From Siphonodentalium dalli (taxonomy: Eukaryota > Mollusca > Scaphopoda > Gadilida > Siphonodentaliidae): a stretch of DNA of 64,000 bases. The notes beneath the pieces are model-generated. The model made no database searches, had not been told where the DNA came from, and worked only from the letters and a program-made list of their open reading frames with translations. The first letter of the stretch is position 1, and every line of letters starts with the position of its first letter. Of the stretch, positions 1-61,330 are shown piece after piece. Location: contig CP136061.1 of assembly GCA_032622095.1 (NCBI GenBank), positions 255,265,582-255,329,581 of the forward strand, in the 5' to 3' direction. The position numbers and the translations under genes were made by a program.

Positions 1-1976
1 TATTTCAAGGCTTGGTTATCATAATGAGAAAGTTCTTTTGTCTAGGCTTCCACTAAAATCTAATACGGACCTCCTCTGAGGAATGATAGAACGTCGAAAG
101 TCCGACATGTACTGTAGGATCATCGATATTCTCAGGTACAGAAGGATGGCTTTCATTCTGTGTTATGACTGAACCAAGGTCTGTTAGCCTGAAATACAGA
201 TGTAGATACTATGATATTAACGCATGTACATGTATAGAAGAATGGCTTTCATTCTGTGTTATGACTGAACCAAGGTCTGTTAGCCTGAAATACAGATGTA
301 GATACTATGAGCTATTAACACATGTACATGTATAGAAGGATGGCTTTCATTCTGTGTTATGACTGAACCAAGGTCTGTTAGCCTGAAATACAGATGTAGA
401 TACTATGAGCTATTAACACATGTACATGTATAGAAGAATGGCTTTCATTCTGTGTTATGACTGAACCAAGGTCTGTTAGCCTGAAATACAGATGTAGATA
501 CTATGAGCTATTAACACATGTACATGTATAGAAGGATGGCTTTCATTCTGTGTTATGACTGAACCAAGGTCTGTTAGCCTGAAATACAGATGTAGATACT
601 ATGAGCTATTAACACATGTACATGTATAGAAGAATGGCTTTCATTCTGTGTTATGACTGAACCAAGGTCTGTTAGCCTGAAATACAGATGTAGATACTAT
701 GAGATATTAACACATGTACATGTATAGAAGGATGGCTTTCATTCTGCGTTACGACTGAACCAAGGTCTGTTAGCCTGAAATACAGATGTAGATACTATGA
801 TATTAACACATGTACATGTATAGAAGGATGGCTTTCATTCTGCGTTACGACTGAACCAAGGTCTGTTAGCCTGAAATACAGATGTAGATACTATGATATT
901 AACGCATGTACATGTATAGAAGAATGGCTTTCATTCTGCGTTACGACTGAACCAAGGTCTGTTAGCCTGAAATACAGATGTAGATACTATGAGATATTAA
1001 CACATGTACATGTATAGAAGGATGGCTTTCATTCTGCGTTACGACTGAACCAAGGTCTGTTAGCCTGAAATACAGATGTAGATACTATGAGATATTAACA
1101 CATGTACATGTATAGAAGGATGGCTTTCATTCTGCGTTACGACTGAACCAAGGTCTGTTAGCCTGAAATACAGATGTAGATACTATGAGATATTAACACA
1201 TGTACATGTATAGAAGGATGGCTTTCATTCTGCGTTACGACTGAACCAAGGTCTGTTAGCCTGAAATACAGATGTAGATACTATGAGATATTAACACATG
1301 TACATGTATAGAAGGATGGCTTTCATTCTGCGTTACGACTGAACCAAGGTCTGTTAGCCTGAAATACAGATGTAGATACTATGAGCTATTAACACATGTA
1401 CATGTATAGAAGGATGGCTTTCATTCTGTGTTATGACTGAACCAAGGTCTGTTAGCCTGAAATACAGATGTAGATACTATGAGATATTAACACATGTACA
1501 TGTATAGAAGGATGGCTTTCATTCTGCGTTACGACTGAACCAAGGTCTGTTAGCCTGAAATACAGATGTAGATACTATGAGCTATTAACACATGTACATG
1601 TATAGAAGGATGGCTTTCATTCTGCGTTACGACTGAACCAAGGTCTGTTAGCCTGAAATACAGATGTAGATACTATGAGATATTAACACATGTACATGTA
1701 TAGAAGGATGGCTTTCATTCTGTGTTACGACTGAACCAAGGTCTGTTAGCCTGAAATACAGATGTAGATACTATGAGATATTAACACATGTACATGTATA
1801 GAAGGATGGCTTTCATTCTGCGTTACGACTGAACCAAGGTCTGTTAGCCTGAAATACAGATGTAGATACTATGAGATATTAACACATGTACATGTATAGA
1901 AGGATGGCTTTCATTCTGTGTTACGACTGAACCAAGGTCTGTTAGCCTGAAATACAGATGTAGATACTATGAGATA
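1..1976. repeat. 96-98 bp minisatellite array
   Basis: About 19 head-to-tail units run from about base 130, each reading GGATGGCTTTCATTCTG, then CCAAGGTCTGTTAGCC, then CACATGTACATGTATAG. Variants are GTTATG/GTTACG and GAGCTATT/GAGATATT/GATATT. The last unit is interrupted by the family A element at 1977 and resumes at 2377-2411. Bases 1-14 (TATTTCAAGGCTTG) match the right end of family E; bases 15-130 are unassigned. The array lies in the PLD intron downstream of the exon at 3489-3628. Confidence 0.95.
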
Positions 1977-2376
1977 TTAACCCTTTACCCAACAAACCGG
2001 CCAAAACCGGCCAAATAAAGCTTCAACAGCCTAAAATATCTTCGGTCTGTCTCAATAAAACCATACACATATGGATATCATTGGAACCGGCTCCTTGACC
2101 ACATTGTGATAGTTACAGTTATGCCCTGTGCCAATGCATTCTCTTATATATGCGAGTCGACCATAGGTCGCCTCGCATATATAAGAGAATGCATTGGCCT
2201 AAAAAAAACTTTTTTTTAACACTTTTTACCATTTTTTCTTACATTCTTTAACAATTTTATAATTTTTAATGTATTAAGCCAATGCATTCTCTTATATATG
2301 CGAGGCGACCTATGGTCGACTCGCATATATAAGAGAATGCATTGGCACAGGGCCGTTCTGTTGGGTAAAGGGTTAA
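1977..2376 (+). mobile_element. Family A TTAA MITE, copy A1
   Basis: Bounded by TTAA on both sides with inverted ends CCCTTTACCCAACA / TGTTGGGTAAAGGG. Inside, a unique left part (CCGGCCAAAACCGGCC, then GACCACATTGTGATAG) leads to two hairpins of about 70 nt that face each other across an A/T-rich spacer. Each hairpin has stem CCAATGCATTCTCTTATATA and tip CGACC-ATA-GGTCG. The TTAA target and CCC start are the piggyBac-type signature; no transposase is present. The insertion splits a minisatellite unit that elsewhere reads GATATTAACACATG. Confidence 0.9.
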
Positions 2377-3488: not shown

Positions 3489-3628
3489 TTGTGTAATTCA
3501 TCATCCCATCTTCCATAGCAAAGGTCAAGGCCACCCGTAAAGGCTACTTTCTGATCGATAACGATCATCTTCTCATGGTGCGCCCACAGATATGTGCCTC
3601 CAGGTACATGGTCAGGATGTCGTAGAAC
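3489..3628 (-). CDS. PLD: PLD exon: HKD motif 1
   Basis: After acceptor TCTGTGATAG this 140-nt exon encodes 46 codons plus two bases and ends CACAA|GTAAGT. It reads [17 protein letters not shown], then [16 protein letters not shown], then [13 protein letters not shown]. HxKxxxxD (H, K and D of HHEKMIVID) is the first of two catalytic HKD motifs; its histidine belongs to the pair that forms the covalent phosphatidyl intermediate in the family. The GG and YGRWDD that follow are also family-conserved. The acceptor has a modest pyrimidine tract. A family C transposon ends 11 nt past the donor. Confidence 0.95.
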
Positions 3629-5388: not shown

Positions 5389-5561
5389 TGGCCATAGACG
5401 ACACATTTAACTTACTAGATTACTGAATTTCATACAAGTAATTAAAATTCTCACCTGGAAAGCATGATAAAATTGTTACAGGATTCCTTGTTGCCGGCTA
5501 CGGTGACATATGAAGCTCAGCGAGATTAACATCAGCTCGGCTAGCCCGATATTAATCTTAC

Positions 5562-5855
5562 TTCACCTCATATGACACCATATCTGGCAACAACTCGCCC
5601 TATAACTTATAATAGCTTCGTTAGGGGGGGATAAGATAAACCAACAAACCTTAATGTTACTTCGCCTCATATGAAACCATATCTGGCAACAACTCGCCCT
5701 GTAACTTATAATAGCTTCGTTAGGGGGGGATATGATAAACCAACAAACCTTAATGTTACTTCGCCTCATATGAAACCATATCTGGCAACAACTCGCCCTG
5801 TAACTTATAATAGCTTCGTTAGGGGGGGATATAATAAACCAACAAACCTTAATGT
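5562..5855. repeat. 99-bp tandem repeat spanning a PLD splice donor
   Basis: Three copies start near 5562, 5661 and 5760, each with CCATATCTGGCAACAACTCG and ATAGCTTCGTTAGGGGGG. Each contains ACCTTAATGTT, which on the minus strand is AACATTAAG|GTTTGT, the 3' end and donor of the PLD exon at 5848-5961. Candidate exon ends are therefore 5848, 5749 and 5650. The array stays open in the PLD frame. Confidence 0.9.
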
Positions 5856-5961
5856 TCTTCCTATTACAGTTGACAAGCTTCACTTTACTGTATGCGCTTT
5901 TAATTCCGAGTGCGAATTCTACTTCCTTGTAAAGCAGGATAAATACTTTCACACCCTCATC
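5848..5961 (-). CDS. PLD: PLD exon: LLYKEVEFALGI region
   Basis: 38 codons in phase 0 from acceptor CAATTACAG. The peptide reads DEGVKVFILLYKEVEFALGI, then KSAYSKVKLVNCNRKNIK. The YKEVE-ALGI block is a PLD1/2 hallmark between the DWWLSPE segment and HKD1, and NIK joins to VLRHPDHV in the next exon as in the family. The donor AAG|GTTTGT is weaker than the other donors here and is repeated in the adjacent 99-bp array. Using a distal donor would add 33 or 66 residues in frame. Confidence 0.94.
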
Positions 5962-6996: not shown

Positions 6997-7078
6997 AGCT
7001 TTCTTCTCGAGCAGTACATCTAATCTCCATATAGATCCCTCTGTATTTGGCCTCTTGAGGTAAATTTCTGGGCTCAAC
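6997..7078 (-). CDS. PLD: PLD exon: LSPEIYLKRP region
   Basis: 82 nt from acceptor TAATTTCAG to donor AAAGCT|GTGAGT. The first base completes the second W of DWW; it then reads LSPEIYLKRPNTEGSIWRLD and VLLEKKA. This continues the conserved DWWLSPE-LKRP block of PX-PH PLDs. It is the only exon here with a plain neighbourhood: no transposon or tandem array within 200 nt. Confidence 0.95.
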
Positions 7079-7589
7079 CTGAAATTATTATAACAAAAAA
7101 ACAAGAATAATAATAACAAAAAATTTAAAATAATTTCAACTTTCATAAGATTTCCATAAGTTTCCAACATCAAAAATTTAACATTTGAAGATGATATAAA
7201 AACTATATCTCATAGAAAAAGAGATAAAGTTACATTATAAAAACTAAATTGATTCATTGTAGAATGTAGAGTAACTCATATAGTGAATGCATTGGTTTAT
7301 TTTCTAAGAAATGAACGCTGCTTGAGCAATTTTCTATCAAATCAAACGTCTGGGTTATCCAGCTGGTTTATCAAGAAGAAAAATTTTCTTTATAAAAAAA
7401 GTATGAAATAATTCAACTATAAGTGTGCTAATGAGCAATTTTCAACTTATAAATTATCTTTTTTCGAAAGCCAATAGCAATTAGAATTCAATGTTATCCT
7501 GTCGCATTCATATTAGGGGAGAATCAGGCCCCATCCTTCATGAATAAACCTTCCACCAATCTGTGATGAAAATCTCAAAATAAACCTAC
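7079..7589. other. Short PLD intron, no element recognised
   Basis: AT-rich intron of 511 nt with no inverted-repeat or tandem element seen. Confidence 0.6.
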
Positions 7590-7673
7590 CACCAATCTGT
7601 GATGAAAATTTCCTGTTTTGCATTTTCTATTGCATCAGCGGCTGCTTCAAAATATGTAGCGCCGTCCACAAAC
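7590..7673 (-). CDS. PLD: PLD exon: FITDWW region
   Basis: 84 nt ending GATTGGTG|GTAGGT. It reads FVDGATYFEAAADAIENAKQ, then EIFITDW, and its last two bases start the second W. Family members have Y-F/A-A-I-AK-EIFITDWW at this point. The exon's first 23 or so bases and the acceptor TATTCACAG are the terminal unit of a 41-bp tandem array, so the true 3' splice site could be any of about 13 copies. I chose the copy nearest the conserved coding sequence (start at 7673), which gives correct phase with the upstream exon (TG|G = W). Confidence 0.93.
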
Positions 7674-8182
7674 CTGTGAATACAAGACGTAAATATGTAG
7701 CGCCGTCCACAAACCTGTGAATACAAGACGTAAATATGTAGCGCCGTCCACAAACCTGTGAATACAAGACGTAAATATGTAGCGCCGTCCACAAACCTGT
7801 GAATACAAGACGTAAATATGTAGCGCCGTCCACAAACCTGTGAATACAAGACGTAAATATGTAGCGCCGTCCACAAACCTGTGAATACAAGACGTAAATA
7901 TGTAGCGCCGTCCACAAACCTGTGAATACAAGACGTAAATATGTAGCGCCGTCCACAAACCTGTGAATACAAGACGTAAATATGTAGCGCCGTCCACAAA
8001 CCTGTGAATACAAGACGTAAATATGTAGCGCCGTCCACAAACCTGTGAATACAAGACGTAAATATGTAGCGCCGTCCACAAACCTGTGAATACAAGACGT
8101 AAATATGTAGCGCCGTCCACAAACCTGTGAATACAAGACGTAAATATGTAGCGCCGTCCACAAACCTGTGAATACAAGAAGT
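7651..8182. repeat. 41-bp tandem array of a PLD 3' splice site
   Basis: Thirteen nearly identical units start at 7656 and recur every 41 bp to 8148. On the minus strand each reads TCTTGTATTCACAG|GTTTG, then TGGACGGCGCTACATATTTA. Each unit thus carries a pyrimidine-rich acceptor plus the first bases of the PLD exon. Because 41 is not divisible by 3, all three minus frames cycle through the array, and none has a stop. Confidence 0.96.
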
Positions 8183-8250
8183 TTTAACCCTTTCATGAAG
8201 GAAGCTGTGCAGAATTAAAATCTTGTGCTAGTCCATTCTCTTAAAGGTGT

Positions 8251-10453: not shown

Positions 10454-10603
10454 CATCTAGCATAGGATTCCTCTCTCACTGGTGCGAATGATTCAAATCT
10501 GTTTATCTGTGTGAAGTCCTTAGCTCCTGTTCTAGCAGCATGCTCTATGCTGTCAGCCCACTCCCTCACCTTCCGATGGGTCCAACATTTCAGCAGCAAT
10601 TGT
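10454..10603 (-). CDS. PLD: PLD exon: end of PH domain
   Basis: 150 nt between acceptor GAAAAATTTCAG and donor AGATG|GTATGA. It reads RQLLLKCWTHRKVREWADSI, then EHAARTGAKDFTQINRF, then ESFAPVREESYARW. This matches the last PH strand and helix (LLLKC...W..SI) and the linker RFESFAPVRE before the catalytic half. Both splice sites are tightly hemmed by transposons: 9 nt to D1 on the donor side, 28 nt to A5 on the acceptor side. TTAATCAAC beside the A5 end is a possible branch site. Confidence 0.95.
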
Positions 10604-51904: not shown

Positions 51905-52275
51905 TGGTCTATATCATCATCATCATCATCTTAATTACCATCATCACCATCATTATCATCATCATAATCATCATCATCTAATTATCATCACCCTCATCAT
52001 CATCATCTTAATTTTCATCATCACCATCATACCCATCATCATCGTCATATCATCAACATACTCGTCATCATTTTAATTATCATTATCATAATCATCACCT
52101 TCATCATCTTCTTAATTATCATCATCATAATCATCATTATCTTAATTATCATCATCAAAGTCATCATCATCATCCTCATCTTAATTATCAGAATCATCAT
52201 CATAATCATCATTATCTTAATTATCATCATCATAATCATCATTATCTTAATTATCATCGTCATAATCCACCCCAT
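51905..52275. repeat. ATC/TTAATTATCATC microsatellite
   Basis: Runs of TCATCATCATC with periodic TTAATTATCATCATCATAA. Minus-strand frames give Met/Ile-rich artefacts. Confidence 0.95.
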
Positions 52276-58290: not shown

Positions 58291-58705
58291 ATAGCAAGTT
58301 TTACGTTTGCTATAGACATACCCCAAAATCGAGTGAGTGCCTCCATGGAAACTAATTTTTCGGGCACTAATATGGTTGACATCGCAAACATGTCCAGTTC
58401 ATTTTGAAGCTAAGATATACTTTGAGAGACTGTATGTTATATAATGTGTCAATGCAAGATTCATTAAAATTTGATCAAACTTATATCGAGTAAGTATTTC
58501 AGGTCATAATTTTCGTATAAAACACGATTATCGAACAGTAATATGCAAATTGCGGAAATCACAACCGCTCATTTCTGTTGACCGATTATCTCTGTTAACA
58601 TTAAAAAAAATCAAGGTAAAATAAACTGTTTTTATGAAATAACTTAAGACAACTAAAGACAATGTGCAAATCGTGGGCCATGTGGTTATTCCACTACGAG
58701 CATGT

Positions 58706-58975
58706 CATCATCATCTTAATTATCATCATCATCATAATCGTCATCATCATAATAATCATCATCATCTTAATTATCATCATCATCATAATCTTAATTATCA
58801 TCTGACATCATAATCAGCTTAATTATAACAATCATCACCCTCATAATAATCATCATCATCATCATCTTAAATATCATCACCATCATAATAATCATCACCA
58901 TCATAATCATCATCACCATTGTCATGAAACATATCATCATCATATCATCAACATTGTAGTTATCCTCATCATCAT
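58706..58975. repeat. ATC/TTAATTATC microsatellite
   Basis: Same composition as 51905-52275; directly abuts the right end of the 6.4-kb element. Confidence 0.93.
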
Positions 58976-59500
58976 CTAGTGTTGAAACGATTAGTCGACT
59001 AATCGAAATCGACGCGATTATTAAATTAGTCGATTCCGAAATCGGCTAGTCGACTAGTCGGAACACACCCACCACCATTATGCCATCGCGAAAGCAGTGC
59101 CGTTGCTGTCGTTGCCGAATTACTGGACAATTTAAACAATCAGGCTATCAAAATACACACTCACAATTAGCTTGTTAAAGCCTTCTTTGATGCGATAACT
59201 GCTTTCAGTACTTGGTGGTCATGCACGAGCGCGAAACCCAATGACCTCAACTCAATGTATTTGTCGGCGCCGCGGCGGCTTATTCTTTGAAGTTGAGACG
59301 ACTGGCTTTGATAATCAACTTCAAAGAATCAGCGCCTATCGCAACCTTGTCTATTTCGGCGTGACGGAATTGATATGAGTGATAACTGGTCAACGTGTTT
59401 CCAGGTGTGCAGGACTCAACTTCAATCAAGTTAGTTGCGAGGTGACATTAATAAGTTTTAAGTTTAATAACAAGTCCAATATATTATAGTTTATTGAAGC
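58976..59500. mobile_element. Possible hAT element terminus
   Basis: AGTGTTGAAACGATTAGTCG then ACTAATCGAAATCGAC looks like the start of hAT/ZBED-type transposons. It is followed by inverted GGCTTATTCTTTGAAGTTGA / TCAACTTCAAAGAATCAGCG (59277 and 59312). No opposite end found in the window. Confidence 0.4.
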
Positions 59501-60919: not shown

Positions 60920-61330
60920 CTGATATCATCATATTTAACATCATCGTACCCACCATCATGTTCATCATAATTGTAATTATCATCATCATCATCATATTCT
61001 TCATCAGTGTAATTATCAACATCATCATATTCTTCATCATTACAATCCTCATAATTATCATCATCATCATCACTATTGTCCATTTGTCATATGACATATC
61101 ATTATCATCATCATAATCATCATCATCATCATCATATTCATCACATCGTGCCCATCATCATCATGTTCATCATCATTGTAATTAATTATCTTCATCATCA
61201 TCATATTCATCATCATTACAATCCTCATAATCATCACCATCATCATAATCTTCACATCGTACCAATCATCATCACCATATTCATCATCATCGTACCCACC
61301 ATCACCATGTGGATCATTCTCATACACTAA
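60920..61330. repeat. ATC microsatellite
   Basis: Long TCATCATCAT run with phased TTATCATCATCA and CATATTCATCATC variants. All frames across it are artefacts. Confidence 0.95.

Follow-up and report, generated by a model that had tools for sequence, protein, structure and literature searches.

A 13-unit tandem array across the acceptor of a PLD exon, probably a neutral minisatellite of the mirage kind

Minisatellite-like duplications of intron-exon boundaries, known as mirages, have been described in amphioxus, where they are unstable in length (PMC3087553). According to the cited parts of two papers, they occur in Adh3, the globins BflGb6 and BflGb9, PGBD5 and TnC, with units of 10-72, 150-160, 157, 60 and 108 bp (PMC3087553, PMC3902484). 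RT-PCR suggested that splicing is undisturbed by them (PMC3087553), regular splicing was likewise inferred for the further mirages of the PGBD5 paper (PMC3902484), and the Adh data pointed the same way (PMC3087553, PMC3902484). The array reported here, with a unit of 41 bp, is similar to the mirages as these passages present them, i.e. tandem duplications over 5' and 3' splice sites that often carry AG/GT in their copies. The amphioxus cases quoted with numbers have only 2-7 units, those of BflGb6 being 81-100% alike, whereas the present array has 13, of which 12 are identical. Outside cephalochordates, no report using the name mirage appeared among the literature matches listed, which is a limited test.

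The array straddles the acceptor of an exon of a PLD1/2-type gene, and each of its units consists of this acceptor and the first 24 bases of the FVDG..FITDWW exon. All positions refer to the window, i.e. the whole stretch of 64,000 nucleotides that was analysed, and the features are collected in Table 1, where a slash marks a splice boundary. TRF calls the array at 7650-8179 with period 41, 12.9 copies and a match of 100%, and the acceptor TATTCACAG/GTTTGTGG occurs 13 times with its first exon bases at exactly 7673 + 41n (n = 0-12). A preliminary description of this DNA had reported 13 units of 41 bp and had interpreted them as the amplification of a 3' splice site in a PLD gene; both statements agree with our data. 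It had also counted about 13 equivalent acceptors; their positions are as described, but they are not equivalent, since the outermost one (8165) has a mismatch at intron position -15, the only one among the otherwise identical units, and is alone among the 13 in having non-array sequence upstream, which is a repeated, transposon-like end. This end, TTAACCCTTTCATGA, occurs 10 times in the window if up to 2 mismatches are allowed (0.29 expected), and 4 of these occurrences are exact. A genome-wide pattern search with a 33-base core of the unit at up to 3 mismatches gave 13 matches, all in the array, and the reversed core gave none in the same search; a dispersed satellite or transposon as the origin of the unit was rejected because the core was found in the array only. 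As in a mirage, the copies stand head to tail and extend from the intron across the splice site into the exon (17 + 24 bases, 13 units), and the array is an unusually clean splice-boundary minisatellite.

Table 1. Positions in the window of the 41-bp array and of related features of the PLD gene.
Feature	Position	Strand	Remarks
41-bp array, 13 units	7650..8182	minus	unit of 17 intron bases (..TATTCACAG) and 24 exon bases (GTTTGTGGACGGCGCTACATATTT)
First exon base of outermost acceptor (n = 12)	8165	minus	its choice would add 164 residues in frame
TTAACCCTTTCATGA, repeated transposon-like end	8184..8198	plus	adjoins outer edge of 41-bp array
FVDG..FITDWW exon via innermost acceptor (7673)	7590..7673	minus	84 nt; donor TTGGTG/GTAGGT; homology to PLD2 and PLD1 chains
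Upstream exon QLLLKC..EESYAR	10454..10603	minus	150 nt; donor AGATG/GTATGA
Downstream exon LSPEIYLKRPNTEGS..EKKA	6997..7078	minus	82 nt
Exon with first HKD catalytic motif	3489..3628	minus	140 nt, open
36-bp donor duplication, FVDG..FITDWW exon	7543..7609	minus	copies 7579-7609 and 7543-7573, 30/31 bases alike
99-bp x 3 array, donor of EEGV..NIK exon	5552..5860	minus	inferred donor AAG/GTTTGT
98-bp x 19 array, acceptor of LTDLG exon	133..1981	minus	first exon bases 188 to 1946
94-bp x 2, donor of EYVIVCGL exon			PLD gene

The PLD gene, as far as it was rebuilt, looks functional. The product of the three exons around the array, when joined, matches the solved chains of PLD2 (E = 3.7e-29) and PLD1 (E = 5.9e-26). 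The same 95-residue joined query has three matches in the 2.2-Gb genome, which are the three exons of this locus, and hence no retrocopy recording the PLD mRNA was found with it; further matches to the PLDc domain lie on C5, C7 and, weakly, C4. By tblastn with human PLD2 against the window and 48 kb of fetched sequence, 17 exons were placed from the PX domain to the second HKD motif. The two HKD motifs are in separate exons, one in the window (3489-3628) and one about 46 kb to its left. The located exons read open where PLD homology exists. Residues ~1-82, 132-162 and 570-602 of human PLD2 have no located exon in the window and the 48 kb, and the C-terminus after residue 820 was not located and would fall beyond the fetched DNA. 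The introns harbor recurrent palindromic elements with GCCAATGCATTCTCTTATATATGCGAG arms (window 2.0-2.4, 8.6-9.0, 10.0-10.4 and 10.6-11.0 kb), and long degenerate trinucleotide tracts (ATC/TCA/CAT) are found at 51913-52267, 58705-58976 and 60954-61291.

Five tandem duplications cross the edges of 4 of the 17 located PLD exons, two at acceptors and three at donors, a count that leaves out arrays adjacent to but short of the PX a and FNEIGDAL exons. By hand count this makes 5 of 34 exon edges, and TRF arrays take up 16,458 of the 112,000 bases of the PLD region. The outer copy of the 36-bp duplication has no donor GT. The LTDLG array is bigger than the 41-bp array and contains an element bordered by two TTAA sites (1981-2372); CTGTATTTCAG is kept in all of its 19 units; selection for the retained AG was considered and dropped, the variable sites being judged too few to be meaningful.

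Boundary-crossing arrays were found in 10 of 80 exons sampled from other genes. The control sample contained exons together with the 600 bp that flank them to the left and to the right, of which 40 came from chaperonin, 25 from myosin and 15 from kinase genes. The chaperonin (CCT) exons came from 49 matches after removal of 2 intronless ones and 7 near-duplicates, one near-duplicate pair (L019/L020) being kept, while the myosin and kinase exons were hand-picked for spread from 80 and 135 matches, respectively; so few kinase matches were taken because they come mostly from one intronless tandem cluster. A BLAST self-comparison detected a direct copy of exon sequence nearby in 13 of the 80 exons and an inverted copy in one, and no direct copies in their shuffled versions. 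Nine of the 13 flagged loci cross a splice site (L024, L025, L027, L030, L034, L037, L055, L072 and L085), among which L037 is marginal with 4 intron bases and L025 is diverged (73%). The other four were dropped as boundary arrays, i.e. L067 and L086, judged intronic only, and L077 and L081, with short, remote copies judged from the BLAST table alone. The tenth array, 55 bp x 2 across the acceptor of L012, was missed by BLAST and found by a gap-free scan. Seven of the ten are at donors and three at acceptors; together with those of the PLD gene (three and two) they affect both 5' and 3' boundaries in several genes, as mirages do. The BLAST self-comparison seems to miss copies offset by less than ~55 bases, including the 36-bp PLD donor duplication, and since such short offsets seem to be lost, its flag counts and background counts are lower bounds. 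Amplification specific to PLD was rejected in view of the four further boundary duplications in the gene and the 10 control exons.

Several observations were made on the sampled families themselves. The donor of the myosin exon L072 carries a 28-bp unit repeated ~19 times (746-1267), many copies having ACAG/GT; the units of the chaperonin array L012 (540-640) begin with AG/GTGG, and GTTTGT seems to be the point where the preceding exon, L028, ends. Of the 135 kinase matches, about 95 form a cluster of intronless ORFs of ~281 aa at G000:C2:149826753-150603706; their scores are nearly equal, spacings of 2.36 or 2.89 kb are frequent, and almost all lie on the minus strand. Exons of muscle-type myosin heavy chains gave many matches on one contig (G000:C4:158-292 Mb), densely at 274.2-275.5 Mb, and one myosin exon resembles scallop chains to about the same degree as cardiac Myosin-7. 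Close pairs are found among the chaperonin exons (C7:133.43/133.49 Mb, C1:54.10/54.27, C1:68.37/68.53 and C8:26.61/26.65); either they arose by recent local duplication or both haplotypes were assembled side by side. Genome searches with GFP, a cephalochordate marker, and with molluscan haemocyanin and hemerythrin gave no match, by which the absence of these genes is not shown.

In this genome, which is rich in local tandem duplications, exon edges are duplicated about as often as nearby DNA, and there is no clear targeting of splice sites. In the BLAST comparison 8 of 160 exon-match edges, 35 of 480 control points in the flanks and none of 80 exon midpoints were crossed by a duplication; in the gap-free scan, where short offsets are visible, the numbers were 8 of 160 (5.0%), 16 of 480 (3.3%) and 0 of 80, with no crossings in shuffled sequence. 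Both tests use the edges of homology matches rather than exact splice sites, and the eight edges in each include L067 and L086, though these were judged intronic only. The two tests disagree in sign, and so strong targeting, which we had considered, was not seen. Duplications in the BLAST comparison cover 10.1% of the flanks and 2.8% of the exon cores, and the interiors of exons are nearly free of duplication. These data point to neutral tandem duplication that reaches splice sites by chance, since the outer acceptors of the LTDLG array lead to stops and the 10 control exons with arrays correspond to about the local duplication rate.

Most of the boundary arrays tested could not be spliced at their outer copies without loss of the reading frame. 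For the 41-bp array, joined to the neighbouring exons, the acceptors n = 0, 3, 6, 9 and 12 are open and in frame with 0, 41, 82, 123 and 164 added residues, and the remaining 8 of the 12 outer choices lead to a premature stop. The frame test covered 14 arrays, i.e. four of the five PLD arrays and the 10 control arrays; the 36-bp donor duplication was left outside because its outer copy lacks GT. At least one frame-keeping outer copy exists in four of them (the 41-bp array, EEGV, L024 and L027), and no matched outer copy keeps the frame in the other ten: LTDLG, EYVIVCGL, L012, L025, L030, L034, L037, L055, L072 and L085. The cause is a frameshift in L055, a stop after a frameshift in L037 and a stop within the added stretch in the other eight. 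All 18 outer acceptors of the LTDLG array run into a stop after 25-34 residues, and its innermost frame meets one after 45 residues, which is taken to lie past a donor. Since ten of the 14 arrays would otherwise keep no frame, working genes require a usable exon-adjacent copy, and this would hold for acceptors and donors alike provided that the sampled genes are functional.

The inner acceptors of the 41-bp array seem to be good splice sites. By a rough scoring matrix, built on inferred sites of this genome (85 donors and 78 acceptors), they score 12.69 (81st percentile), while the outermost acceptor scores 11.39 (65th) and an LTDLG unit 7.85 (13th); these percentiles are approximate, as the sites outside PLD were picked by best score. 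The exon would measure 84 nt if spliced at the innermost acceptor and 576 nt at the outermost, and under exon definition the shorter exon is favoured. We expect from the sequence that splicing takes place mainly at the 7673 acceptor. If scanning proceeds from the upstream branch point and the first AG downstream is chosen, as the cited part of PMC1431707 has it, the outermost acceptor, in frame and open in this array, would be favoured.

We consider it probable that the 41-bp array is a mirage, i.e. a young, neutral, length-unstable minisatellite straddling an acceptor, with splicing mostly at 7673. The array may go back to one duplication by which intron base -17 came to follow exon base 24, and this single junction would then have been multiplied by slippage or unequal exchange. 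Most transcripts would take the innermost acceptor, because it gives the 84-nt rather than the 576-nt exon and because most of the other arrays tested need their exon-adjacent copy. Splicing would largely ignore the array, some longer or aberrant products may leak, and the length of the array should vary between individuals. The anatomy and uniqueness of the array, the open PLD exons, the boundary arrays elsewhere, the frames lost at outer copies in 10 of 14 arrays, the good scores of the inner acceptors and the amphioxus precedents speak for this reading; the first-AG rule, the slightly higher share of crossed edges than control points in the gap-free scan (5.0% against 3.3%) and the stop met in the innermost LTDLG frame speak against it. 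The array is not a special device of PLD.

An alternative hypothesis could be that the array erases itself by recursive splicing. Each unit would then act as both acceptor and donor, and a wrong first choice would be removed by re-splicing, as the junction regenerates ATG/GTTTGT and the leftover 41n bases could leave as a second intron ending at 7673. The PLD exon at the array does start with GTTTGT, and in each unit a strong acceptor is directly followed by a plausible donor, CAG/GTTTGT, which lies at the 45th percentile of the inferred donors and, of the 6132 GTs that the gene region contains, outscores 98.6%. With the 19th percentile, the regenerated ATG/GTTTGT is close to the donor of the upstream exon itself (29th). 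The EEGV exon likewise has GTTTGT as its inferred donor (AAG/GTTTGT), and four control exons (L015, L028, L046 and L070) apparently end there too. In the cited parts of the literature, Drosophila ratchet points are juxtaposed acceptors and donors (PMC8605326), and a duplicated acceptor-donor site that turns the interval into an intron has been proposed for Drosophila (PMC2891723). However, GT is not an unusual exon start (one screen found it in 8 of 79 control exons), which makes the juxtaposition ordinary, and the LTDLG array with its 19 copies is not accounted for, as its units begin with GC; for these two reasons recursion is not the general answer. Besides, a length of 41 nt is probably below that of a workable intron, and the residue at n = 1 would probably be too short to be removed. 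We regard recursive erasure as possible for the 41-bp array and, on the whole, unlikely. We are equally doubtful of a wider version, in which the array would form 13 zero-length recursive exons, any first choice with at least two units left would be corrected by a second splice, and exon definition would take care of arrays whose units begin without GT, so that the genome tolerates boundary minisatellites in about one tenth of its exons.

A built-in splicing switch is probably not what the 41-bp array provides. The preliminary description had suggested a length-variable switch on the grounds that n = 3, 6, 9 and 12 keep the frame and all other choices shift it, and this statement on frames proved correct, the other eight ending in a stop. 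According to this hypothesis, the outer acceptors, above all the outermost, would place a repeat of 41-residue units, 41 to 164 residues in all, immediately ahead of the catalytic core, as coding length polymorphism or as a switch, and the four open frames as well as the first-AG rule (PMC1431707, in the part cited) would favour it. But the period of 41 bp is not a multiple of 3, as it would be in a coding VNTR, 8 of the 12 outer choices lead to a stop, and one unit more or less already destroys the outermost frame. With a GRAVY of 0.57 the inserted peptide is mildly hydrophobic; it would split a segment whose alignment to the PLD2 chain has no insertion, and an open run over 41 codons arises by chance in about 1 of 7 cases (own arithmetic, equal codons). 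The use of outer copies cannot be reconciled with the 98-bp array of the PLD gene. A dedicated switch was not upheld by the 18 of 18 outer LTDLG acceptors that lead to stops and by the arrays in 10 of 80 control exons at about the local duplication rate, and we give the hypothesis a low probability. An assembly artefact, with one or few units in the true allele, is very improbable: in one case a draft genome gave an aberrant assembly of an amphioxus mirage (PMC3087553, in the part cited), but 533 bp are short for long reads, the outermost unit has its own mismatch, non-array sequence lies on both flanks, and similar arrays exist at other places in the genome.

The array is a natural, 13-copy and near-identical version of the duplicated-splice-site experiments of the 1980s, and it may serve as a test bed for the choice of acceptors by scanning, by exon definition or by recursion. 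Boundary arrays may be abundant in this genome, perhaps as a mirage example outside amphioxus. If about one tenth of the exons are really touched, as in the sample of 80, the genome would be a rich place to study the tolerance of splicing for duplicated sites and the origin of introns.

Other known systems share single features with the array. As in recursive splice sites or ratchet points, an acceptor is directly followed by donor-like sequence; unlike these, it is repeated 13 times at a spacing of 41 bp and lies at the edge of a coding exon. NAGNAG tandem acceptors also offer several acceptors that compete for one exon (PMC2875228, in the part cited), but they are about 3 bases apart, while the spacing here is 41 bases and 17 upstream bases are copied along. 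Intron gain via tandem duplication of proto-splice sites has been reported in Drosophila (PMC2891723, in the part cited), and in the potato RdRp case (PMC4974935) and the Rogers model (via PMC3087553), as far as the cited parts describe them, a possible new intron receives its two splice sites from a duplicated AG/GT, as it could here, whereas the duplicated AG/GT of the PLD gene already borders an existing intron. Compared with the amphioxus mirages, the setting is also different, i.e. a host genome of 2.2 Gb in 9 contigs with boundary arrays in 10 of 80 sampled exons. The 41-bp array is a known kind of repeat and a striking example of it.
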